64,000 nt of DNA from Myxococcales bacterium (GTDB lineage: Bacteria > Myxococcota_A > Polyangia > Haliangiales > Haliangiaceae), in NCBI GenBank assembly GCA_016794525.1, contig JAEUJY010000021.1, forward strand, positions 1 through 64,000. The letters run 5' to 3'. Shown piece after piece: positions 20,516 through 62,346 of the stretch. The notes beneath the pieces are model-generated. The model saw only the letters and a list, made by a program, of their open reading frames with translations, did no database searches and was not told where the DNA came from. The translations under genes were made by a program, and so were the position numbers. How positions within the stretch are numbered: the stretch's first letter is position 1; each line of letters begins with the position of its first letter.

Positions 20516-22678
<2,163 letters not shown>

Positions 22679-33356: not shown

Positions 33357-34217
33357 ATGAGCGACTCGTCCGCCCGCGCGCTGCGGGTCACTGTCACGAT
33401 CGGCACCGCCCCGCAGCGCATGCTCGAGCTGGCGTCGCCGGTGCTGTGCGGGTCGGGGCGCGCCGCCGATGTCCGGGTGATCGATCCCGGGGTGGCGCCG
33501 CTGATGCTCCGGCTGACCCGCGAGGGCGACCGGGTCGTGGCGATCGCCGCGGCGCCGGGGGTGACCGTCGACGGGGTGCCGGCGGCGGTCGATCAGCCGG
33601 TGGTGGTGACCGGCAAGGCGATCCAGGTCGGGCCGGCGCGCCTGGTGGTCGCCCCGTGGTCGCAGGCGCCCGACGCCGACGCCGCCCGCACCGACTCGCT
33701 GGCGCGGGAGTTGATGCGCGACCTGCTCGGCGATCAGTCGCCGCCGCCGCCCGAGCTGGTGATCGAGGGCGGGCCGGCCGCGGGGCAGCGGCTGGCGCTG
33801 CCCGGCGTCGGCGCCCGGGTGGTGATCGGCCGCGGCGACAGCGGCTGGGTCGTGCTGGATCCGGATCTGTCGCGCAGCCACGCGGTGATCGAGCACCGGG
33901 CCGACGGCGCCTGGCTGCGCGATCTCGAGTCGAAGAACGGCACCCGGGTCAACGGCGTGCTGGCGCCGATCGCCGAGCCCGGCGTCGTGCTGTCCGAGGG
34001 CGCGATCATCACGCTGGGCAAGACCACGATCCGCTACCGCGATCCGGCCGCCGCGGCCCTCGGCGGTGCCGCCGCGATGCTGGTGGCCGACACCCACACC
34101 AAGACCACCGGCGCCGCCATCCCGGTCGACGTCCCGCCGCGCTGGCCGATCGCCGTGGCGGCGGTCGTCGCGGCCGCGGCGTTCGCGCTGGTGATCGTGC
34201 TGCTCGCCGGCGGCTGA
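33357..34217 (+). CDS. tail-anchored FHA-domain protein
   Basis: 286 residues from ATG 33357, with GATACT (33345-33350) ending 6 nt upstream. The forkhead-associated domain at about 133-225 has the key residues: VIGRGDSG (G158, R159), LSRSHAVI (S172, H175) and SKNGTRVNG (N194, G195), so it should bind phosphothreonine peptides. Residues 10-100 have the same beta pattern ([11 protein letters not shown]) without the RSH core, likely a degenerate FHA. A single C-terminal span (about 263-283) leaves almost nothing outside, so the FHA domains face the cytoplasm. Likely partner of Ser/Thr kinase signalling. Directly followed by the palindrome array. Confidence 0.87.
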
Positions 34218-34232
34218 GCACCGGCCGGCAGC

Positions 34233-34397
34233 GTCCCACGTGGGAGATGCGTGGGGCGTCCCACGTGGGAGACGGGAGGGGCGTCCCACGTGGGAGACCG
34301 GCGGGGCGTCCCACGTGGGAGACGGGAGGGGCGTCCCACGTGGGAGACGGGCGGGGGCGTCCCACGTGGGAGATGGGAGGGGCGTCCCACGTGGGAG
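34233..34397. repeat. array of seven 25-bp units with TCCCACGTGGGA palindrome
   Basis: Seven copies of GTCCCACGTGGGAG start at 34233, 34258, 34283, 34308, 34333, 34359 and 34384, so the period is 25 bp with one 26-bp step. Each copy contains the 12-bp perfect palindrome TCCCACGTGGGA; the 11-12 bp between copies are G-rich (consensus ACGGGAGGGGC). It lies 16 bp after the FHA stop in an interval with no gene. In RNA, neighbouring copies could pair as 12-bp stems with 13-nt loops. The same 14-bp core in the opposite orientation forms the array at 59153. Confidence 0.93.
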
Positions 34398-34421
34398 ACG
34401 GGTGGGGGCGAGTTCCGTCGC

Positions 34422-34647
34422 CGGTTCCGACCCCGACTCCGGCTCCGGTTCCGGTTCCGGCTCCGGCTCCGGTTCCGGCTCCGGCTCCGGCTCCGGTTCC
34501 GGCTCTGGCTCCGGTTCCGGCTCCGGCTCCGGCTCCGACTCCGGCTCCGGTTCCGGCTCCCGCTCCGGCTCCGGTTCCGACGCCGGCTCCGGCTCCGGTT
34601 CCCGCACCCGGCGCCGGCTCCGGATCCCGCACCCGGCTCCAGCTCCC
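34422..34647. repeat. GGCTCC/GGTTCC hexanucleotide microsatellite
   Basis: About 225 bp of GGCTCC and GGTTCC hexamers with a few variants (GACTCC, GACGCC), ending at the stop of the lipoprotein gene on the minus strand. All frames are open (Gly-Ser on one strand, Glu-Pro on the other) because of composition, and no start or ribosome binding site is convincing, so it is called as noncoding. Together with the array before it this fills the 430 bp between two convergent genes. Confidence 0.88.
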
Positions 34648-34649
34648 GT

Positions 34650-37600
34650 CTATTGCTGCTGGATCTCGAGCTTGCCCGGCGGCAGGTTCGTCGGATCGAG
34701 CGCGTCCCAGGCCAGGGTCGCGCCGGCGGCGGCCAGGTGGAAGCCGTCGAGGGTGCGGGTCGAGGCCACGGGGGTCGGCGTCCACGCCGCGCCAGCCTTG
34801 GCGGCGACCACCAGGTCGGCGGTGGCCGCGTCCTGGTACGCGATCGCCGGGGCGCCGCCGCGCAGGAACACCGTCGCCCCCGCGCCCACCGGGTGGGTGC
34901 GATCGCCGGCGCGGGTGCCGTCGTCGACCAGCTCGATCGCGCCCGGCGCGCCGTTCCAGCTGAGGTAATGGACGGTGTCGGCGCGCGCGTCCTGGTAGGC
35001 GACGTGCAGGGTGCCGTCGGGGCCGACCAGCGCGCTGGCCCACATGCCGCGGTCGCCGCTGCCGTCGAGCACGGTCTCGGCGAACGTGCCGGCGCCGGGC
35101 GCGCTCTCGACCATCATCACCAGCGAGGTGCGGCTGCGGTCGTAGAACACCATCGCCAGCTTGCCGTCGGGTAGCGTGACCAGGTTGACGAACAGGCCGG
35201 TGCCCTGCGGCAGGTCGCTGGCGGTCGGCGTCGGGATCGCGGTGCGGCAGGTGCCGGCGACGCACGCCTGATCGTCGGCGCAGGCGGTCGGGCAGCCGCC
35301 GCCCGGCGTCGCGCAGGTCTCGGGATCGCCGTCGGCCGCCGGGGCCAGGCACACGTCGCCCGAGGCGCACCGGCCGGCGCACGAGCCGACCGCGCTGGCG
35401 ACGGTGGTCAGCGTCCAGTCGGTCGACTGCACCGGGTCGGCGGTGCGGGCCCGGGCCAGCCGCAGCTGGGTCTCGAGCGCGCCGCCGGCGGCGGGCACGT
35501 TCTCGATCAGGTACGCGATCGCCGGGGTGCCGCTGCCGTCGAGGGCCAGGCTGGCGTAGGCGCCGACCGCCGCGGTGGCCGCGTCCTCGACGACGTAGGT
35601 CTTCCACTCGCCGGCGCGGGTCTCGATCGCGAACTTCAGCGCCAGCGCGTCGTGGTCCTGGTACGCGACGCGGGCCAGGCCGCCCTTGAGCGCGACCGAC
35701 GTGTAGTAGCCGACGTCGGGCCCCGGGGTCGCGACGCCGCCGCGGTAGGTCGACGGATCGTAGGTCGGGGTCTCGTCGGGCACGCCGTCGACCGCGGTGA
35801 AGCTGCGGGTGCCGTCGGCGGCGACGTCGACCAGCACGAGATCGCCGAGGAACGCGTCGTAGGTCGATACGACGGTGCGGGTGCCGTCGGTGGCGGCGCC
35901 GTTCCAGCGGCCGAGCGTGCCGACCGCGACCTCGCCGGGCAGGCAGTCGTTGCTGCCGCACGGCGGCGTGCCGCCGCAGTCGCACGCCGGCAGCGTCGCG
36001 GCGAGCGCGAGCACCAGCGCGGCGGTGGCCAGCCGGCGCAGCGCGCGGCGATCGAGCGTCTTGCGCCGGCGGCGGCGCAGCAAGAGGCCGAGCGCGACCG
36101 CGCCCAGCGGCAGCGCGTCGGTGGGCCGGCCGCCGGTCGCGCAGTTGCAGCCACCCTCGCCGGGCGCGCCGTGGAAGCCGGCGCGGGTCTTGCCGCGCTC
36201 GGGCGCGATCGGCAGCTCGAGCACCACCGGCGTCGGGTCGATCGACTCGGCGTGGCCGCGGATGCGGGCGCGCACCTCGACGCGGTGGATGCCAGGCAGC
36301 CACAGCGTCCGGCTCGTGATCGTCCGGGTCGGGTACGGCGACCACGCCGACCACAGGCTGTCGTCGACGCGGGTCGACCACTCGAGGTCGCGGGCGTCGC
36401 CGCCCAGCGCCAGCGCGATCCGCGGCGCGTCCTCGCTGGTCCAGCGGTCGGGATCCGCCAGCGCGTCGGCGCCGGGCAGGATCACGTCGTCGATCTGCGC
36501 CTCGGTCTCGACCGGCGGCAGCGCCTTCATCGCCGGCACCAGGTTGGCGAAGATCGCCAGGAACTGCTTCCCGTCGACCGCGGTGATGTCGGTGACCTCG
36601 ATGTTGAGGCCGCCCAAGGACGGCAGCGCGAACGAGCCCAGGCCGCCGGCCAGGCCGGGCAGGGCCAGCTCGAGCAGCGACGGGAACCGCAGCGCGAGCT
36701 GCGCCGGATCCTCGGTGAGCGCCTCGCTGTTCTTGACCGACAGGTTGGTGAACGCGCCGGCCAGATCGCCGAACACCGGCTCGAGCTCGCCGGCGGCGTT
36801 GACCTGCATGCCCAGCGGCAGGTGCAGGTCGGTGACGATCGTGAAGATGCGGACGTACTGGTCCTCGATCGACACGAAGAAGTCGAGCTCGAGGCCGGTG
36901 AAGTTGATGTCGAGCAGCGGCTCGTCGACCATCACCGTGCCGTCCATCGCGGTGGTGAAGGTGTTGGCGCCCAGCCGCATCGTCGGTGGCGCCTGCGGCC
37001 GCAGCCCCACCGCCACCGCGCCGGTCTTGCTGAGCAGGTTGGCCAGCGACGGCGCGATCAGCCCCAGCGTGTCGGTGGTGAGCAGGTCGACCGTGCGGGT
37101 GCCGACGGTCAGGCACAAGAGGCCGCCGTCGTAGAGGCTGTAGGCCAGCTCGTCGATCTGGCTCTGGTGCAGGCCGAACGCCAGGCCGAACGCGCCGCCG
37201 GTGTCGGGGCGGGTGTTGCCCTGGAAGTACGCCGACTGCGGGATCGTGACCCGCGCCGGCGCGGTGGCCGCCGGACCGCAGCGATCGCGCGCGACGCCGG
37301 CCGGGCGGAAGCCGCCGAGCAGGCCGAGCGCGAGGCCGTTGTTGTTCGAGGTCGCGTAGCCGCCGGCGACCTCGTAGACGTCCATCGCGCCGCTGGTGCC
37401 GGGCGACAGGCTGGCGAACAGGTTGCCGCCGCGGGCGCGGCCGGTGATGCCGACCTCCTGGTAGCAGGTGTTGTCGGCGCGCATGCAGACGTTGTCGGTG
37501 CACGCGGTCGCGAACGGGCCGCACTCGCCGACGTCACCCGACGGGCAGGCCTTGCACGCCTGGTCGGCGATCGCGCCCTTGATCGCGTCGGAGAACGTGC

Positions 37601-38264
37601 TGGTCAGCGTGCCGATGAACAGGCCGATGCCGAGGCTGGCTACCTGACAGCCGAAGCTGCCGGTCAGCGCGACGTCCTGCGAGGTGAGCTGCGACACGAC
37701 GACGTCGCCGACCTCGATGCGCGTCGTCGACGCCATCGCGTCCTGGCGGAAGTTGACCGGGATGTCGAGCTTGATGTCGGGGTCGGCGCCCGGCGCGGTG
37801 TCGATCTTCACGCCGCAGTTGCCGACCAGCGGCACGGTCACCGGGATGTCCATCTGCGAGCGCACCCGCGCGCGCACGGTGACGTCGAGGCGCGACGCGC
37901 CCTGGGCCGGGCGCAGCTCCATCCGCGGCTGATCGCCGGGGTGCTGGGTCAGGTCGATCACGATCGGGCCGCACGGCGACTGCGGGTTGCCGCCGGGGCA
38001 GCACACCGGCGTCGAGCCGCCGCAGCTGGCCGGCACGTCGAACGACAGGCCCATGCCGCCGAGCAGGCCGCCGAGCAGCGCCGCGGGATCGGCCGCGACC
38101 GAGGCCAGGCCCGACTGGCTGACCCGGACCTGGCCGGCGTTGGGCGTGCGCGCCGCCGACGGAAACCCGCCGGGTATCGGCTCGAGGCTCGAACAGCCGC
38201 CGCCGCATCCCGACGATGCGGCGACCGCTGCGAGCACGATGGTCGCAAGATAAGGCTTGGTCAT
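34650..38264 (-). CDS. double lipoprotein: two surface proteins fused, with internal MYXO-CTERM-like signal
   Basis: 1204 residues. Residues 1-20 are a signal ending in SSGCGGGC (Cys20 probable lipidation). Residues about 40-700 form a large soluble Cys-containing domain. At 704-735 comes GEGGCNC, a linker, a hydrophobic stretch (ALPLGAVALGLLL) and RRRRRK, exactly the layout of a MYXO-CTERM sorting signal, which normally ends a protein. It continues with a second hydrophobic signal and lipobox-like LAATLPAC (Cys761), then about 440 residues with beta-propeller-like repeats (RVAYQDHDALALKFA, LHVAYQDARADTVHYL) and Cys-rich loops. This looks like two secreted proteins joined in frame. GGGGAG lies 6 nt before ATG 38264. 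Could also be a missed stop or sequencing slip; no internal start is convincing. Confidence 0.8.
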   Translation of the reverse strand: MTKPYLATIVLAAVAASSGCGGGCSSLEPIPGGFPSAARTPNAGQVRVSQSGLASVAADPAALLGGLLGGMGLSFDVPASCGGSTPVCCPGGNPQSPCGPIVIDLTQHPGDQPRMELRPAQGASRLDVTVRARVRSQMDIPVTVPLVGNCGVKIDTAPGADPDIKLDIPVNFRQDAMASTTRIEVGDVVVSQLTSQDVALTGSFGCQVASLGIGLFIGTLTSTFSDAIKGAIADQACKACPSGDVGECGPFATACTDNVCMRADNTCYQEVGITGRARGGNLFASLSPGTSGAMDVYEVAGGYATSNNNGLALGLLGGFRPAGVARDRCGPAATAPARVTIPQSAYFQGNTRPDTGGAFGLAFGLHQSQIDELAYSLYDGGLLCLTVGTRTVDLLTTDTLGLIAPSLANLLSKTGAVAVGLRPQAPPTMRLGANTFTTAMDGTVMVDEPLLDINFTGLELDFFVSIEDQYVRIFTIVTDLHLPLGMQVNAAGELEPVFGDLAGAFTNLSVKNSEALTEDPAQLALRFPSLLELALPGLAGGLGSFALPSLGGLNIEVTDITAVDGKQFLAIFANLVPAMKALPPVETEAQIDDVILPGADALADPDRWTSEDAPRIALALGGDARDLEWSTRVDDSLWSAWSPYPTRTITSRTLWLPGIHRVEVRARIRGHAESIDPTPVVLELPIAPERGKTRAGFHGAPGEGGCNCATGGRPTDALPLGAVALGLLLRRRRRKTLDRRALRRLATAALVLALAATLPACDCGGTPPCGSNDCLPGEVAVGTLGRWNGAATDGTRTVVSTYDAFLGDLVLVDVAADGTRSFTAVDGVPDETPTYDPSTYRGGVATPGPDVGYYTSVALKGGLARVAYQDHDALALKFAIETRAGEWKTYVVEDAATAAVGAYASLALDGSGTPAIAYLIENVPAAGGALETQLRLARARTADPVQSTDWTLTTVASAVGSCAGRCASGDVCLAPAADGDPETCATPGGGCPTACADDQACVAGTCRTAIPTPTASDLPQGTGLFVNLVTLPDGKLAMVFYDRSRTSLVMMVESAPGAGTFAETVLDGSGDRGMWASALVGPDGTLHVAYQDARADTVHYLSWNGAPGAIELVDDGTRAGDRTHPVGAGATVFLRGGAPAIAYQDAATADLVVAAKAGAAWTPTPVASTRTLDGFHLAAAGATLAWDALDPTNLPPGKLEIQQQ

Positions 38265-51710: not shown

Positions 51711-52000
51711 TGTGGCTGGGACCGCGGCCGGGACCGCGACGGCGACCGGGACCGCGGCCGCGACGGCGACCGCGGCCGCGACGGCGACCGGGACCGCGGC
51801 CGCGACGGCGACCGGGACCGCGACGGCGACCGGAGCCGGAGTCGGAGTCGGTGCCGGAGCCGGAGCCGGAGCCGGAGTCGGAGTCGGAGCCGGAGCCGGA
51901 GTCGGAGCCGGAGACGGAGACGGAGACGGTGACGGAGCCGGTGACGGAGTCGGAGCCGGAGTCGGAAACGGTGACGGAGTCGGAGCCGGTGACGGGGCTC
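51711..52000. repeat. GC-rich hexanucleotide repeat before DUF4139 paralogue 2
   Basis: About 290 bp of GGGACC, GCGGCC, GCGACG, then GGAGCC/GGAGTC and GGAGAC hexamers. It is in frame with the lipoprotein gene downstream, but the signal peptide and AGGAGG site at 52103 mark the true start, so it is called as noncoding. It fills most of the 411-bp gap. Confidence 0.8.
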
Positions 52001-52114: not shown

Positions 52115-54679
52115 ATGCGTCGAGGTATCTCGCTGGCGCTGGTCGTCGGCATGGTCGCGGGGTGCGGGGGGCGGCTGCGCCATGTCGCGGTGGATCGCGT
52201 GCCGCTGGGCAAGGTGGTCGTGTACCGCAACGGCGTGGCGTTCTATGAGCGGCGGGCGCGGGTGGTGGGCGGCAAGGTGCGGGTGCGCGTGCCGCGGGAG
52301 CGCGTCGATGACTTCTTGAAGTCGCTGACGGTGGTCGACGCGGCGTCGGGGCGGGCGCTGCCGGTGACGTTCCCGCGTCGGCAGGCGGCGGACGCTGCGG
52401 TGATCGACATGGAGCTCGACGTCGGCGGCGGCGCGGCCGACGTGGTGATGACCTACATCACCGACGCGGCGGCGTGGAAGCCGAGCTACCGGCTGGTGCT
52501 GGGCGACGACGACGCGGCGATGCTCGAGAGCTGGGCGGTGGTCGACAACCAGTCGGGCGAGGACTGGAACGACGTGGCGATCGGCGTCGGGGCCAGCGCG
52601 GCGATGTCGTTCCGCTACGACCTGTGGAGCGTGCGCACGGTCGATCGCGCGACGCTCGCGCAGGACGAGGTGTTCGCGGTGGCGCCGCCGACCGCGGTGA
52701 GCCCCTACGGCGGTGACGGGACCGCGGTCGCCGCGGCGACGCCGCTGGTGACGCTGGACGCCGACGAGATCCGCGGCGCGAGCGCCGGGGCACCGACCCC
52801 ATCGCCGACCCCGTCTCCGACCCCGACTCCGTCTCCGTCTCCGACCCCGTCTCCGTCCCCGTCTCCGTCGGTGACCCCGCAGGTGATCCCGTACGACGGC
52901 GGTGGCACCGCCACGACCGGCACGATCCAGGGCCGGGTCACGGATACGATCGCCGGCGACGCGATCGCCGGGGTGACCGTGGACGCGCGCGGCCCGGCCG
53001 GTTCCGGGACTGCGATCACCGAGGAAGATGGCAGCTACCGCATCGTCGGGCTCGCGCCCGGCGAGTACATGTTGACGTTCTTCCTGGGCGAGGCCCAGTT
53101 CGCGCGCCCCGGCGTCCGGGTCGTGGTCAACAAGACCACGCCGGTGTTCCAGAAGCTCAACCCGGAGCTGCCGGTCACCGAGATCATCGAACTCCAAGGC
53201 CGCATGCCGGCGATCGATCCGACCTCGACCACGCAGGGCATCACGATCGATCAGGACTACACGCGGAACATCCCGGTGCCGGGGCGCACGTTCGGGGCCA
53301 CGCTCGGCACCGCTGCCGGGCGCAGCGACGACGATGGCGACGCGCCACGATCGCCGCCGCCGCCGCCACCGGATCCGTACGCGCAGGTGCGCCTGGGCGA
53401 TCAGAAGCTGAAGGAGGTCGCGGCGGGGCTGATCAAGGACCGTCGCCCGGTGGTGGTGCAGGGCTTCGCGGCGCCCGGCGAGCTCGCGCCCGAGCGCGCG
53501 GCGCTGGCCCGCGCCAACCTGGTGCGCAACCAGCTGATCGACGCCGGGGTCGCGCCGGCGCGGGTCGGCGTGGCCAGCGCCGGCGTCGGCGCGCGCGCGA
53601 TGGTGCAGATCGTCGCCGGCACCGCGGGCCACGCCGAGACCCGGGCCGCGGCGCCGCGCGCCGAGGTCAGCGCCGACGCGCCGCCGATCGGCGAGAGCCT
53701 GTTCGCGGCGCCGACGACGGTGCGGGTCGCGAACGGGCAGAGCACGATGGTGTCGGTGCTGCGCGCGCCGACCACCGGCCGCGAGGTCTACCTCTACGAC
53801 GGCGACGGCGAGCGCGGCAACGCGCGGTTCGCGTTCAAGGCGGTGCGGATCGCCAACCCGACCGGCGCGACGCTGGAGGCCGGGCCGATCACGGTCTACG
53901 GCGCTGGCCGCTACGTCGGCGAGGGCCTGGCCGGCGCGATCGCGCCCCACGCCGCCGCGGTGGTGCCGTACGCGCTCGACCGGCAGATCGTCGTGGCCCG
54001 CGAGCGCGCCACCGCCGACGAGCTGGCGCGGCTGACCTCGGTCGCGCGCGGCGTGGCGACCGCCGAGGTCCAGCACCTGCGCACGACGACGTTGACGATC
54101 ACCAGCCGGCTGCGCACGCCGACGACGGTCTACGTGCGGCACCCGGTCGAGGCCGGCTGGACGCTGCTCGAGCCAGGCGTGCCCCGCGAGCGCGACGGCG
54201 ACCACGTGCTGCTCGCGGTCGAGCTGCCGGCCGGCGCGACCCGCGCGCTGGCGCTGCGCGAGGCGACGCCGATGACCCGGCGGCTGGCCTTCACCGACGC
54301 GGCGGCGGTCGACGAGCTGCGGCTGTTCGTCGACAGCGGCCGGGCCAGCGGGGCGCTGCGGCAGCAGCTCGCGGCGTTCCTCGCGGCCCACGCGGCGCTG
54401 ATCGACGCCACCGAGCGCGCCGCCGGGCTGCGCGAGCGCGCGGCCGAGTACCGCGCGCGCCAGGCCGAGCTGATGGCGCAGCTGGTGGCGCTGCGCAAGC
54501 TCCAGAGCGCGGCGGTGCTCAGCCGGACGCTGGCGGCCAAGCTCGCGGACATCGCCACCCGGCTGCAGGAGACGACGCTGGCGATCACGACGGCCGACGA
54601 CGCGGTGACGCTGCGCCGGGTGGACCTGGCCGACGCGATCGCGCTGGTGCACCTCGACGACGCGCTGGCGGCGCGCTGA
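52115..54679 (+). CDS. DUF4139-type lipoprotein with CarboxypepD-like and TonB-plug-like insert (paralogue 2)
   Basis: 854 residues from ATG 52115, 6 nt after AGGAGG (52103-52108). Lipobox MVAGC (Cys17). The conserved N-terminal module (KVVVYRNGVAFYERRARVVGG) ends at APPTAVSPYGG. The variable site then holds a Pro/Thr/Ser linker (226-255), a carboxypeptidase-regulatory domain (about 266-345, GTIQGRVTD, DGSYRIVGLAPGEY) and a TonB-receptor plug start (AIDPTSTTQGITIDQDYTRN, IPVPGRTF, to about 402). A PPPPPPDPY joint leads to the OmpA-like stretch, the DUF4139 core and the C-terminal coiled coil. No receptor barrel is present. The insert is in canonical receptor order. Confidence 0.87.
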   Translation: MRRGISLALVVGMVAGCGGRLRHVAVDRVPLGKVVVYRNGVAFYERRARVVGGKVRVRVPRERVDDFLKSLTVVDAASGRALPVTFPRRQAADAAVIDMELDVGGGAADVVMTYITDAAAWKPSYRLVLGDDDAAMLESWAVVDNQSGEDWNDVAIGVGASAAMSFRYDLWSVRTVDRATLAQDEVFAVAPPTAVSPYGGDGTAVAAATPLVTLDADEIRGASAGAPTPSPTPSPTPTPSPSPTPSPSPSPSVTPQVIPYDGGGTATTGTIQGRVTDTIAGDAIAGVTVDARGPAGSGTAITEEDGSYRIVGLAPGEYMLTFFLGEAQFARPGVRVVVNKTTPVFQKLNPELPVTEIIELQGRMPAIDPTSTTQGITIDQDYTRNIPVPGRTFGATLGTAAGRSDDDGDAPRSPPPPPPDPYAQVRLGDQKLKEVAAGLIKDRRPVVVQGFAAPGELAPERAALARANLVRNQLIDAGVAPARVGVASAGVGARAMVQIVAGTAGHAETRAAAPRAEVSADAPPIGESLFAAPTTVRVANGQSTMVSVLRAPTTGREVYLYDGDGERGNARFAFKAVRIANPTGATLEAGPITVYGAGRYVGEGLAGAIAPHAAAVVPYALDRQIVVARERATADELARLTSVARGVATAEVQHLRTTTLTITSRLRTPTTVYVRHPVEAGWTLLEPGVPRERDGDHVLLAVELPAGATRALALREATPMTRRLAFTDAAAVDELRLFVDSGRASGALRQQLAAFLAAHAALIDATERAAGLRERAAEYRARQAELMAQLVALRKLQSAAVLSRTLAAKLADIATRLQETTLAITTADDAVTLRRVDLADAIALVHLDDALAAR

Positions 54680-58202: not shown

Positions 58203-59129
58203 ATGCGTCCCATCGTCTCGCTCCGCTCGCTCCGCGCTGTCCTCGGCGCCAGCCTCGTCGCCGTCGCCCTGGCCGCCGCGCCCGCCGCGGCGGACGACGC
58301 CGGCGCGCTCTACAAACAGGGCATCAGCTGGAAGAACCAGGGCAAGGACGACGAGGCGATCGCCGCGTTCGAGAAGACGGTCGCCGCCGATCCCAGGCAC
58401 GGCATGGCGTGGGCCTCGCTCGGCCACCTGTACAAGAAGAAGAAGATGTTCCCGCAGGCGGTCGACGCCTACGAGCACGCGACGCAGATCCTGACCAAGG
58501 ACGCGACGGTGTGGTCGAACCTGGGCATGGCGTACTACCGGGTCGATCGGCTCGACGACGCGCTCGCGGCGCTGCAGACGTCGTGCAAGCTCGACCCCAA
58601 GCAGGCCGACGTGTTCTCGAACATCGGCGTGATCAAGCGCAAGAAGGGCGACGCCGAAGGCGCGCTCAAGGCGCTCGAGTGGGCGGTCAAGCTGGCGCCG
58701 GGCGAGCACAGCTACGTCAACAACCTCGGCGTCGCGCAGCGCGCCGCCAACCAGCTCGACGCGGCCGCGGCGTCGTTCGCGAAGGCGATCGAGCTCAAGC
58801 CCGACGTCGCCGAGTACTACTTCAACGCGGCGGTGGTGTTCCGCCGGCAAGAAGAGGTCGAGAAGGCCATCCCGATGTACGAGAAGGCCGTGGGCCTGGC
58901 GCCCGATCACGCCGACGCCTGGTACGACCTCGGCTACATGTACAAGCTGAACCACGAGGACGAGAAGGCGGTGGAGGCCTTCAACACGTTCCTCGAGCTC
59001 AACAAGGGCAAGGACGCCGAGGCGCAGAAGAACGTCGAGGGCGAGGTCATCGCGCTGGGCGGCACGCCGGTGACCGCGCCGCCGAAGGCGACGCCGAAGA
59101 AGTCCCCGAAGAAGCCGAAGAGCAAGTAG
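58203..59129 (+). CDS. exported TPR-repeat protein
   Basis: 308 residues from ATG 58203, 8 nt after AGGAGG (58189-58194). The signal is MRPIVSLRSLRAVLGASLVAVALAAAPAAA with an AxA site. Residues about 31-280 are tandem tetratricopeptide repeats (WASLGHLYKKKKMFPQAVDA, VWSNLGMAYYRVDRLDDAL, YYFNAAVVFRRQEEVEKAI). A Lys/Pro-rich tail (KATPKKSPKKPKSK) ends it. Likely a periplasmic or outer-membrane scaffold for a protein complex. The palindrome array starts about 25 bp after its stop. Confidence 0.9.
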   Translation: MRPIVSLRSLRAVLGASLVAVALAAAPAAADDAGALYKQGISWKNQGKDDEAIAAFEKTVAADPRHGMAWASLGHLYKKKKMFPQAVDAYEHATQILTKDATVWSNLGMAYYRVDRLDDALAALQTSCKLDPKQADVFSNIGVIKRKKGDAEGALKALEWAVKLAPGEHSYVNNLGVAQRAANQLDAAAASFAKAIELKPDVAEYYFNAAVVFRRQEEVEKAIPMYEKAVGLAPDHADAWYDLGYMYKLNHEDEKAVEAFNTFLELNKGKDAEAQKNVEGEVIALGGTPVTAPPKATPKKSPKKPKSK

Positions 59130-59152: not shown

Positions 59153-59472
59153 TCCCCACGTAGGACGTCTCCCACGTGGGACGTCGGCAGGCTCTCCCTC
59201 GTGGGATGGCGCCGCAGGCGCTCCCCCGTGGGACGTCGGCAGGCTTCCCGCGTGGGACGTCGCCCGGATCTCCCACGTGGGACGGCGCCCGGAGCTCCCA
59301 CGTGGGACGTCGTTCGGATCGCCCACGTGGGACGGCGCCCGGATCTCCCACGTGGGACGTCGCCCGGAACTCCCACGTGGGAAGTCGCCCGGAGCTCCCC
59401 CCAAGGATCGCCCACGTGGGATGGCGCCAGGATCTCCCACGTGGGACGTCGCCCGGATCTCCCACGTGGGAG
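59153..59472. repeat. array of about 14 25-bp units with TCCCACGTGGGA palindrome
   Basis: Units of consensus CTCCCACGTGGGAC plus an 11-nt spacer (GTCGCCCGGAT) start at 59169, 59194, 59221, 59245, 59270, 59295, 59320, 59345, 59370, 59409, 59434 and 59459; a truncated unit is at 59395 and a decayed one at 59153. Most contain the exact 12-bp palindrome. The core is the reverse complement of that in the 34233 array. It occupies the gap between the TPR gene and the helicase promoter. No start codon context supports translation. Confidence 0.93.
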
Positions 59473-59580: not shown

Positions 59581-62346
59581 ATGGACGCCCCCTCGCTCGA
59601 CCTGTCTCGCTTCCCGGGCCGCGTGATCGCCACGCGGTCGATCCCGCCGCGCGAGGCGGTGTACGCGCCGCTGCCCGAGGGGCTGCACTCGGCGCTGCGC
59701 GAGACGCTGGCGGCGCGCGGGATCGAGCGGCTGTACAGCCATCAGGTGGAGGCGTTCGACGCGGCGCGCGGGGGGGAGAGCGTGGTGGTCACGACCGGCA
59801 CGGCGAGCGGCAAGTCGCTGTCGTACTTTCTGCCGGTGATCCAGGCGACGCTGGAGGATCCGTCGGCGCGCACGCTGCTGCTGTTCCCGACCAAGGCGCT
59901 GACCCAGGATCAGCTGCGCGGCGTGCTGGGGCTGGTCGATCACCTGGCGACGCGCACCGACGTGCCGGCGCCGCGGATCATGGCGGGCGTGTACGACGGC
60001 GACACGCCGCCGGCCGAGCGGACCAAGGTCCGCGATCGCGCGAACCTGGTCTTGACCAACCCCGACATGCTGCACAGCGCGCTCTTGCCCAGCCACGGGC
60101 GGCGCGGCTTCGCCCACGTGTTCCGCAACGTGCGCTACGTGGTGATCGACGAGCTGCACACCTACCGCGGCGCGTTCGGCGCGCACTTCGCCAACCTGAT
60201 GCGGCGGCTGTTGCGGGTGTGCGCGCACCACGGCAGCCGGCCGCAGTTCCTGTGCAGCTCGGCGACGATCGCCAACGCCCGCGAGCACGCCGAGGCGCTG
60301 TGCCACCGGCCGTTCCGGCTGGTCGATCGCGACGGCTCGCCGTCGGCGGGCAAGGTGGTGCACTTCTGGCAGCCGCCGCTGACCGAGCGCGACACCCGGC
60401 AGCCGGTGACCGCCGAGCTGGCGACGTTGCTGCCGCACCTGATCGCCGCGCGCCACCGCACGATCGCGTTCTGTCGCAGCCGCAAGGAGACCGAGATCGT
60501 GCTGAAGGAGTCGCGCGATCGGCTGCGCGACGTGGCCGGCCACGACGAGGGTTACCTCCTGGCGGGCTACCGCGGCGGCTACACGCCGGAGGAGCGGCGC
60601 GGCGTCGAGCGGGCGCTGGTCGACGGCAGCCTGGTCGGCGTGGTGTCGACCAACGCGCTCGAGCTGGGCATCGACATCGGCGCGCTGCAGGTGGTGGTGC
60701 AGGGCGGCTTCCCCGGCACGCGCGCGAGCTTCTGGCAGCAGCTCGGGCGCGCCGGGCGGCGCAACGAGGTGGCCCACGCGATCGTCGTCCTGGCGGTGTC
60801 GCCGACCGATCAGTTCATCGGCGAGAACCCCGACTGGCTGGTCGGGCAGGCCGCCGAGCACGCGGTGGTCGATCGCGACAACCTGGCGATCCAGCTGGCC
60901 CACGTGCGCGCCGCCGCGGCCGAGCTGCCGCTGTCGCTCGACGACGCCGCGGTGTTCCCCGACCTCGGCGAGATCGTCGTCGTGCTGGCCCGCGCCGGCG
61001 AGGTGCGCGAGGCGCTGGGCAGCTGGCACTGGACCGGCGGGCTGTTCCCGGCCGGCGAGGTCAGCCTGCGCAACCTGCACAACGATCGCTTCAAGGTGGT
61101 CAACCGCGCGACCGGCACGACCCTCACCGAGATGAGCCGGCCGCAGGTCTACCGCGAGGCCCACACCCGCGCGATCTACCTGCACGACGGCGTGCAGTAC
61201 CAGGTCGAGGCGCTCGATCTGGTGCAGCACGTGGCGACGGTGGGCGAGGTCGAGCAGAACTTCTACACCCAGCCCGACGTGCGCACCGCGATCGACGTGC
61301 TGCTCACCCAGGAGCAGCGGGCGTTCGGGCTGACCGAGGCGGCGTTCGGCGACGTGCGCGTCGACGACGTCGTCGTCGGCTACAAGATGCTCGAGTTCCA
61401 CAACCACCAGAACCTCGGCTACGAGGCGCTGCACGAGCACCTGCGCCTGGTGCTGGAGACCGAGGCGGTGTGGATCACGGTGCCCGAGGCGGTGCTGGCG
61501 GTGCTGGGCGGCGAGCGCGAGGACGCGCTGGCCGGCATGGTCCACGCGGTCGGGGCCTGCGCGCGCCTGCACACGATGGCCGAGCGCTCGGACCTGTGCG
61601 CGACCAGCTTCCACGTCGCCGACGAGCAGACCGGCCGCACCGCGACCGCGCTGGTCTGCTACGACAGCCACCCGGGCGGGCTGGGCTACGCGGCCAAGGC
61701 GTACGAGCGGCTCGACGACGTGCTGGCCGCGGCGCTCGGGCTGGTCGAGCGCTGTCGCTGCCAGCGCGGCTGCCCGGCGTGCGTCGGCAGCTGGGCCCGC
61801 GATCCGACGCTGGTGGGCTGGGCGCTGCGCCGGCTGCGCGAGGCGGTGCCGCCGCCGGTCGAGGTGCGCGGCGCGGCGTCCGGCGAGGCGTCGCCGCCGC
61901 TGGCGCCGGTGCTGCGGCTGGTGGTGCCGCGGATCCCGTGGCGCGAGGTCGACGCGCGCTGGGACGAGCTGTGCGCGCGGCTGCGGACGGCGCAGGTCGA
62001 GGGCGCCGAGCTGCTGACGCGGCTCGGACCGGCCGAGCGCCGCGGCGCGCGGCTGGTCCTGCGGGTGGCGAGCCCGGGGCTGGCCGGCTGGCTGGGCGCC
62101 GACGCCGCGCAGCGCCGGCTGTGGCAGGCGATCGCCCGCGAGGTGGAGGTGCCGGCCGACGGCGCGATCGCGATCGAGGTCGACGCGGCGGCGCGCGATC
62201 GCGGGCACGCGATCACCGGCAAGCTGCAGCGGCGCCACGACGATCTGATCGGCGATCGCGCCGACACCGAGCGCGCGGCCAGCGCCAAGCTCGCCAGCGG
62301 CTACGTGCTCGAGGAGGCCGGGCCGCGGCCGGAGCCCCAGCCGTGA
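59581..62346 (+). CDS. DEAD/DEAH-box helicase with DUF1998 zinc domain, MrfA-like
   Basis: 921 residues from ATG 59581 with AGGAG upstream. Superfamily 2 helicase core: TTGTASGKSLSY (Walker A, K78), DELHTYRG (D190-H193), CSSATI (227-229), STNALELGIDIG and QQLGRAGRRN (387-395). The C-terminal part carries CYDSHPGGLGYA and CRCQRGCPACVGSW, the DUF1998 zinc-binding region of MrfA/YprA-type helicases, which work on mitomycin-type crosslinks in Bacillus. Length fits. Cytoplasmic, ATP-dependent. Coupled to the UvrD-type gene by GTGA at 62343 and driven by a LexA-box-like promoter, which fits DNA repair. Confidence 0.92.
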   Translation: MDAPSLDLSRFPGRVIATRSIPPREAVYAPLPEGLHSALRETLAARGIERLYSHQVEAFDAARGGESVVVTTGTASGKSLSYFLPVIQATLEDPSARTLLLFPTKALTQDQLRGVLGLVDHLATRTDVPAPRIMAGVYDGDTPPAERTKVRDRANLVLTNPDMLHSALLPSHGRRGFAHVFRNVRYVVIDELHTYRGAFGAHFANLMRRLLRVCAHHGSRPQFLCSSATIANAREHAEALCHRPFRLVDRDGSPSAGKVVHFWQPPLTERDTRQPVTAELATLLPHLIAARHRTIAFCRSRKETEIVLKESRDRLRDVAGHDEGYLLAGYRGGYTPEERRGVERALVDGSLVGVVSTNALELGIDIGALQVVVQGGFPGTRASFWQQLGRAGRRNEVAHAIVVLAVSPTDQFIGENPDWLVGQAAEHAVVDRDNLAIQLAHVRAAAAELPLSLDDAAVFPDLGEIVVVLARAGEVREALGSWHWTGGLFPAGEVSLRNLHNDRFKVVNRATGTTLTEMSRPQVYREAHTRAIYLHDGVQYQVEALDLVQHVATVGEVEQNFYTQPDVRTAIDVLLTQEQRAFGLTEAAFGDVRVDDVVVGYKMLEFHNHQNLGYEALHEHLRLVLETEAVWITVPEAVLAVLGGEREDALAGMVHAVGACARLHTMAERSDLCATSFHVADEQTGRTATALVCYDSHPGGLGYAAKAYERLDDVLAAALGLVERCRCQRGCPACVGSWARDPTLVGWALRRLREAVPPPVEVRGAASGEASPPLAPVLRLVVPRIPWREVDARWDELCARLRTAQVEGAELLTRLGPAERRGARLVLRVASPGLAGWLGADAAQRRLWQAIAREVEVPADGAIAIEVDAAARDRGHAITGKLQRRHDDLIGDRADTERAASAKLASGYVLEEAGPRPEPQP

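Follow-up and report, generated by a model that had tools for sequence, protein, structure and literature searches.

A palindrome array downstream of an FHA-domain gene is one locus of a genome-wide repeat family that also occurs in HNH-type genes

Array 1 and its neighboring genes

We analyzed a 64,000-nt stretch of contig JAEUJY010000021.1 from a bacterium of the Haliangiaceae (the window, meaning this whole stretch). The genes and repeats concerned are the following.

33357..34217, + strand: gene preceding array 1, encoding a 286-aa FHA-domain protein (start set by coding score)
34234..34396, no strand: array 1, in which the 12-bp palindrome TCCCACGTGGGA occurs seven times without mismatch, separated by array-specific 13/14-bp spacers
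34421..34646 (226 bp), no strand: hexamer microsatellite CCGGCT (TRF, 37.3 copies, 79% matches)
34650..38264, - strand: convergent gene of 1204 aa (Pfam, no match at E 0.001)
58203..59129, + strand: gene upstream of array 2, 308 aa (coding-score call)
59154..59471, no strand: array 2, of the same palindrome family, 13 units at ≤2 mismatches, 7 of them exact, period mostly 25
59581..62346, + strand: codirectional gene of 921 aa, downstream of array 2 (coding-score call)

Pfam analysis of the 286-aa protein gave matches to FHA (PF00498, 52.2 bits) and Yop-YscD_cpl (PF16697, 58.7 bits). The copies of array 1 start at 34234, 34259, 34284, 34309, 34334, 34360, and 34385, i.e., with spacings of 25, 25, 25, 25, 26, and 25 bp, and TRF reports a 25-bp-period array over 34231-34407. 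The layout described in an earlier sequence-only reading of this DNA was confirmed. The first copy (34234) lies 16 bp past the FHA stop (ORF end at 34217), all seven copies are exact, neighboring copies can pair in 12-bp stems with 13-nt loops (one loop of 14 nt), and the array is followed by the microsatellite and then by the minus-strand convergent gene. Array 2 begins 24 bp past the stop of its upstream gene and ends 109 bp before the start of its downstream gene. At ≤1 mismatch, 19 copies of TCCCACGTGGGA were counted in the window against 0.21 expected, and none of 100 shuffles reached 19. Hexamer microsatellites were found in the window at 22495-22594, 34421-34646, 51830-51989, and 52811-52869.

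Distribution and conservation of the palindrome family

The seven-copy repeat is not specific to the FHA gene; it belongs to a family that occurs across the genome. In 9.8 Mb on 177 contigs there are 348 exact copies of TCCCACGTGGGA, compared with 0.94 expected from base composition and 0 for the reversed control. Pairs spaced exactly 13 bp apart number 106 at ≤2 mismatches, 53 of these exact. At least 252 of the 348 copies could be located, in at least 37 clusters on at least 29 contigs, and this census is a lower bound, with 96 copies having no assigned position. Among the located clusters, 28 are arrays outside HNH-type nuclease genes and 9 are inside such genes. Across the family the palindrome is constant while the spacers are array-specific, with periods of about 22-50 bp. 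Many of the arrays and HNH-type genes are found at the ends of contigs (C6, C7, C20, C21, C38, C48, C50, C70, C82, C87, C88, C121, C122, and C158), so the assembly probably breaks in them and the copy number may be underestimated. The commonest hexamer microsatellites of this genome include CCGGCT/CCGGAG (21 TRF rows in 711 kb); those of G006, the closest relative found, are of different types (GAGACC/GACCGA/CTCGGT; 37 TRF rows in 361 kb, loci L205-L224), and several stand at contig starts.

Gene neighborhoods were taken from a codon-score gene caller, not from curated annotation. For 22 arrays both neighbors were called, with 10 convergent, 11 codirectional, and 1 divergent arrangement; this count omits six arrays at contig ends (C38, C48, C50, C70, C82, and C121:67k) and the 9 HNH clusters, treats the two C91 clusters as one array by ignoring a low-scoring ORF across the intervening microsatellite, and includes a sole divergent array (C37:38.7k) that hangs on a weak gene call. 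In the baseline of 307 gaps without the palindrome, 62 were convergent, 178 codirectional, and 67 divergent. The convergent excess has p = 0.007 (binomial) or p = 0.013 (Fisher), and the divergent deficit has p = 0.03. All 11 codirectional arrays are closer to the upstream stop than to the downstream start, and 21 of the 22 arrays adjoin a stop codon, 10 of the 21 in convergent gaps. Such 3'-end siting fits both insertion tolerance and a role in RNA. According to the available text of one source, REP elements are sited in the same way, near stop codons between convergent or codirectional genes (PMC3733652).

We compared the family with related genomes. Each of six same-genus genomes has 0 or 1 copy of TCCCACGTGGGA, and 15 copies are reached in one genome from another genus of the same family. 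An exact TCCCACGTGGGA pair was found in none of 55 relatives, and a scan for such a pair in a public collection, which may omit the genome studied here, found nothing. In G006 the FHA gene is 66% identical and has the same convergent arrangement; array and microsatellite are both absent from this syntenic locus and the two stops are 23 bp apart. The folD gene was matched in four sister genomes, only one of which, G006, is syntenic downstream (gene 85% identical, convergent neighbor homologous by eye). The folD array and its flanking hexamers are present in the genome studied here and absent from G006; the other three sister genomes have different neighbors at folD and no such array. The simplest reading of this comparison is that the arrays were most likely gained in the lineage carrying them, although they may be ancient and have disappeared from G006.

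Within arrays, the palindrome diverges by 5.4% and the spacers by 19.4%, and the palindrome is the lower of the two in 24 of 28 arrays; the comparison covers clusters with at least 3 exact copies and spacers of 8-45 bp, and the palindrome value is biased low because units were detected through the palindrome itself (up to 3 mismatches). Gap-free runs in exact register, e.g., in C24, showed the same trend of a conserved palindrome. Exact units amount to 234 of 329, and only 1 of 26 double variants is palindromic. With the spacers drifting, this indicates that one exact sequence is kept, and not merely the capacity to pair. A pure RNA hairpin would accept any palindrome and favor paired changes, and the conserved 12-mer therefore points elsewhere, either to a sequence that is itself recognized or to a very recent spread.

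Palindromes in HNH-type genes and in other genomes

Nine of the 37 located clusters lie in frame within HNH-type genes, with the palindrome mostly just past the HNH region, where it encodes the peptide SHVG. C6 carries a small array of 36-bp period after the HNH region; C7 and C88 have the palindrome at one common internal position and count as a single case by descent. Seven of the nine clusters were discovered through the palindrome itself and do not alone show an association; two (C87 and C88) came from 40 independently sampled contig starts (710,834 bp) in which no copy was known before. This sample yielded 2 palindromes, both in HNH genes, and 4 HNH fragments, two of which end before the palindrome-bearing part; it is not random, since repeats, HNH genes among them, are places where assemblies tend to break.

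The palindrome occurs in several HNH-type (apparently DUF222-related) gene copies and coincides with a drop in homology in the clearest pairs. Identity before and after it was 99 and 43% for C20-C21, 98 and 43% for C122-C87, and 92 and 58% for C6-C122. The drop is sharp in the first two pairs and weaker in the C6 pairs; in C158 the palindrome is shifted and the anchored comparison fails. Such a drop could instead reflect a fast-evolving tail and not the end of an element. On the upstream side, other short palindromes, not TCCCACGTGGGA, lie near the homology boundary (by eye).

The relation to the DUF222/HNH family is tentative. In Pfam, L058 matches DUF222 with 30.3 bits and L128 matches HNH with 26.9 bits, both passing the cut-offs; L128 also carries a RuvA_C domain. 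For the HNH-type protein of the present genome the Pfam HNH match is sub-threshold. Matches to the IscB model over the HNH region fall below the cut-off. Searches with the HNH protein gave no confirmed relative in IMG/VR, no match in plasmids, and no solved structure at E 0.1. A possible defense role was considered; the matches from PADLOC fall within the HNH region only and point to a single protein, DpdF (1.3e-8 for L128, 0.0061 and 0.0019 for two others).

In other genomes, the palindrome or its 10-bp core CCCACGTGGG was found inside HNH-type ORFs (L042, L058, L128, L133, L134, L147, and L157) or past the stop of an HNH-type gene, by 499 bp in L148 and 29 bp in L156. The in-frame cases mostly encode SHVG or PHVG; L042, L058, and L134 use other frames. 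As the frame differs between species, or the palindrome lies past the stop, the DNA is shared more than the peptide, and conservation of the protein alone is unlikely to account for the palindrome in these genes. A peptide constraint is possible within the present genome, where all HNH copies use the SHVG frame. Of 31 loci selected with the 12-mer (132 kb), 6 contain an HNH-type gene, compared with 0 of 62 loci selected on other grounds (512 kb); two of the six (L042 and L058) are profile seeds, and the two sets of loci come partly from different genomes. A small sample of G006 (360,620 bp), a genome without the 12-mer, had neither an HNH-type gene nor the core.

Public genomes contain 25 stretches with triple arrays of the core, and the titles of these stretches include Kofleriaceae, Polyangia, Sandaracinaceae, Tannerella, Prevotellaceae, Acidobacteria, and Streptomyces termitum; three of the 25 have an HNH-type gene (L128 and L133, both seeds, and L134). 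Within the class, 10 of 317 genomes, the present one included, carry such arrays. Five control palindromes of equal composition gave triple arrays in 5 (GGGTCGACCC), 0, 0, 0, and 0 of the same 317. The core therefore recurs beyond what palindromy alone would give, with a margin over the best control of only twofold. The contigs titled Tannerella or Prevotellaceae (L120, L122, L124, L126, L130, L131, and L137) have core arrays with periods of 41, 42, or 50 bp and a G+C content of 0.46-0.55, and they are far from the present lineage. In L135 the core array lies between two convergent 23S_rRNA_IVP genes (PF05635, Pfam; 465-785 and 909-1223), and in L138 it lies beside a 23S_rRNA_IVP gene recognized by sequence motif only; a motif scan of the other loci then collected found none besides these two. 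A viral source was rejected, as core-pair and core-triple patterns gave 0 stretches in IMG/VR.

We also examined Y1 transposase genes. The present genome has 17 Y1_Tnp (PF01797) matches (L063-L079), many of which are related to each other, with about 80-95% identity over as much as 1.2 kb. Eleven aligned copies have upstream inverted repeats AAGAACGGCGC / GCGCCGTTCTTC (by eye) that are unrelated to TCCCACGTGGGA. None of the 17 loci carries TCCCACGTGGGA at ≤1 mismatch in the surrounding DNA covered, in which some flanks are cut by contig ends. Within 1 kb of 20 Y1 loci from G001, G002, G004, G005, and G009 the palindrome is absent; a copy with one mismatch occurs at 1.25 kb. In G003 each of the three Y1 matches (L080-L082) is preceded by the palindrome at a distance of about 190-245 bp, exactly in one case and with one mismatch in two, in the form (G)TCCCACGTGGGA(C) or a one-mismatch variant, and the homology of two of these elements starts there. 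In G020 a repeat of 138-154 bp at contig ends holds the palindrome and is common to 5 of 8 fetched loci. The Y1 genes of G003 and the repeat of G020 thus indicate that HNH-type genes are not the sole partner. Tandem repeats of longer period (45-231 bp) also carry the palindrome (L039 and L040 of G024, L121, and L041-L044 of G028), and the units of L039, L040, and L121 have a second palindrome, ATTCCGCGGAAT or ACTCCGCGGAGT.

Origin of the arrays and comparison with known systems

The family is dispersed, tandem, and 3'-end-biased, is absent from G006 at two sites, and keeps its exact sequence as the spacers drift. The explanation that we favor, tentatively and at somewhat less than an even chance, is that array 1 is a locus of a REP-like family that spread in one species, was possibly shed from a mobile HNH gene, and was amplified where insertion was tolerated. 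The repeat unit would comprise the 12-bp TCCCACGTGGGA and a variable spacer, with TCCCACGTGGGA serving as the end of, or the recognition site for, a putative mobile HNH element. Single palindromes would be left by this element, or seeded by its nuclease, at many sites and would then multiply locally via slippage or break repair, from which array-specific spacers and periods would follow. Gene 3' ends would dominate because insertions there are presumably least harmful. RNA hairpins, and any effect at transcript ends, would follow from the palindromes and would not be their primary cause. On this explanation a striking 3' hairpin array needs no role in the adjacent gene, and the coexistence of empty sites, single palindromes, and full arrays would offer a natural case for the step from a palindrome to a tandem array.

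A more far-reaching version, which we regard as unlikely although worth stating, is a REP system of a second type, in which a mobile gene for an HNH/DUF222-type nuclease would shed its terminal TCCCACGTGGGA (core CCCACGTGGG), and this would be dispersed to gene 3' ends and locally amplified, in parallel to RAYT-REP with an unrelated enzyme. If the HNH link is right in either version, REP-like repeats would gain a second, non-HUH partner enzyme and DUF222/HNH-type proteins a testable function. In the more far-reaching version, the core arrays in HNH-type genes of other lineages (L133 and L134, one of them outside the phylum by its title) would mean that the system is widespread.

The arrays might alternatively be neutral minisatellites, in which the palindrome merely promotes slippage with no partner enzyme and the adjacent hexamers behave alike. 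The hexamer richness of both this genome and G006 is consistent with such an origin, as are the microsatellites flanking the arrays at FHA and folD and the triple arrays of the control GGGTCGACCC. Slippage alone, however, leaves unexplained the identical 12-mer with different spacers at 37 clusters, and the ranking of CCCACGTGGG above all five equal-composition controls also speaks against it; we consider it improbable. A comparably low probability is assigned to the view that the palindromes are sites for a putative sequence-specific dimeric DNA-binding protein (a nucleoid organizer or roadblock) and the arrays clusters of such sites. A symmetric, clustered site whose exact sequence is retained while spacers drift would suit such a protein, but the periods differ between arrays with no common spacing, and the family is absent from congeners.

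The sequence-only reading had proposed that array 1 could act as a 3' RNA structure or buffer after the FHA gene. RNA folding of 34218-34420 speaks for this proposal, with z scores of -5.8 (+ strand) and -6.2 (- strand) and a stability that none of 200 shuffles matched on either strand, and so does the position of nearly all arrays beside a stop. When the microsatellite is included (34218-34649, + strand), the excess is lost (z = -0.77; 20 of 100 shuffles as stable). Several findings speak against a device specific to the FHA gene. The FHA and folD sites of G006 lack the array, the exact 12-mer is kept and double variants are almost never palindromic, no U-tract terminator was found in 33900-34900, Rfam gave no match in the window, and the same palindrome stands inside HNH-type coding sequence. 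The general form of this proposal extends to all arrays: where convergent transcripts meet, tandem hairpins carried by both of them would stop read-through or 3'-5' exonucleases. It draws on the strong folding of both strands, on the 3'-end siting, and on the identically sited REPs, most of which are argued in the available text to be transcribed and may act as RNA (PMC3733652). The general form is nevertheless doubtful in the face of the kept 12-mer, where pairing would need only palindromy, and of the two empty G006 sites, the absent U-tract, and the copies within HNH-type genes. A 3'-RNA function of the arrays is possible as a side effect and is probably secondary. Classical RAYT-REP, in which the arrays were moved by the 17 Y1 transposases of this genome, is very unlikely: the upstream palindromes of G003 and the homology that starts at them argue for it, and the counts of 0/17 and 0/20 elsewhere argue against it.

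We also compared the family with known systems. CRISPR was rejected, as the spacers are not unique and recur and drift within arrays. Intrinsic terminators likewise form strong gene-end hairpins on both strands; here the U-tract is missing, the exact sequence is conserved, and the family is nearly absent from relatives, and a terminator made of a GC-rich hairpin and a U run was rejected with 0 found at 33900-34900. The REP13E12/DUF222-HNH elements of mycobacteria resemble the present case in that HNH/DUF222 genes occur in several copies, and REP13E12/HNH endonuclease/DUF222 is counted among repetitive elements (PMC10589994). They differ in that the available text of that source describes no dispersed palindromic arrays for REP13E12 (PMC10589994). 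In the portions of the HNH/DUF222 literature available, no report was found linking these genes to a palindrome. A search of one library for the core sequence, myxobacterial or Haliangium palindromic repeats, REP/RAYT, and HNH/DUF222 found no description of this array family in the accessible text.

The closest comparison is with REP/BIME/REPIN sequences and RAYTs. REPs of the GTAG and CGTC superfamilies are stem-loops of 20-40 bp with an internal loop, whereas the palindrome here is a perfect 12-bp palindrome without a loop, in tandem arrays rather than inverted doublets; some tandem REP arrays are mentioned as well in the available text of one source (PMC3116915). In contrast to REP-RAYT/REPtron systems, the Y1 genes of this genome are unlinked to the palindrome, for which reason RAYT-REP was rejected here, and the linked gene is HNH-type, not HUH. 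REPs carry an unpaired GTAG or CGTC tag at one end; here the flanks vary, with GATC on the left and CG on the right commonest after orientation by flank, and CGTC stands beside the palindrome in some arrays. The inverted pairs of REPINs were not found: by flank score, all seven units of array 1 and all 7 scored units of array 2 point one way. In several other arrays (L016, L021, L022, and L023) the flank-score orientation is mixed or ambiguous. The likenesses to REP-type systems, as far as the available text of two sources describes them, are that both consist of high-copy, often species-specific extragenic palindromes near stops, and that the palindrome flanks a partner DNA-processing gene, in the present case a putative one (PMC3733652; PMC3116915).
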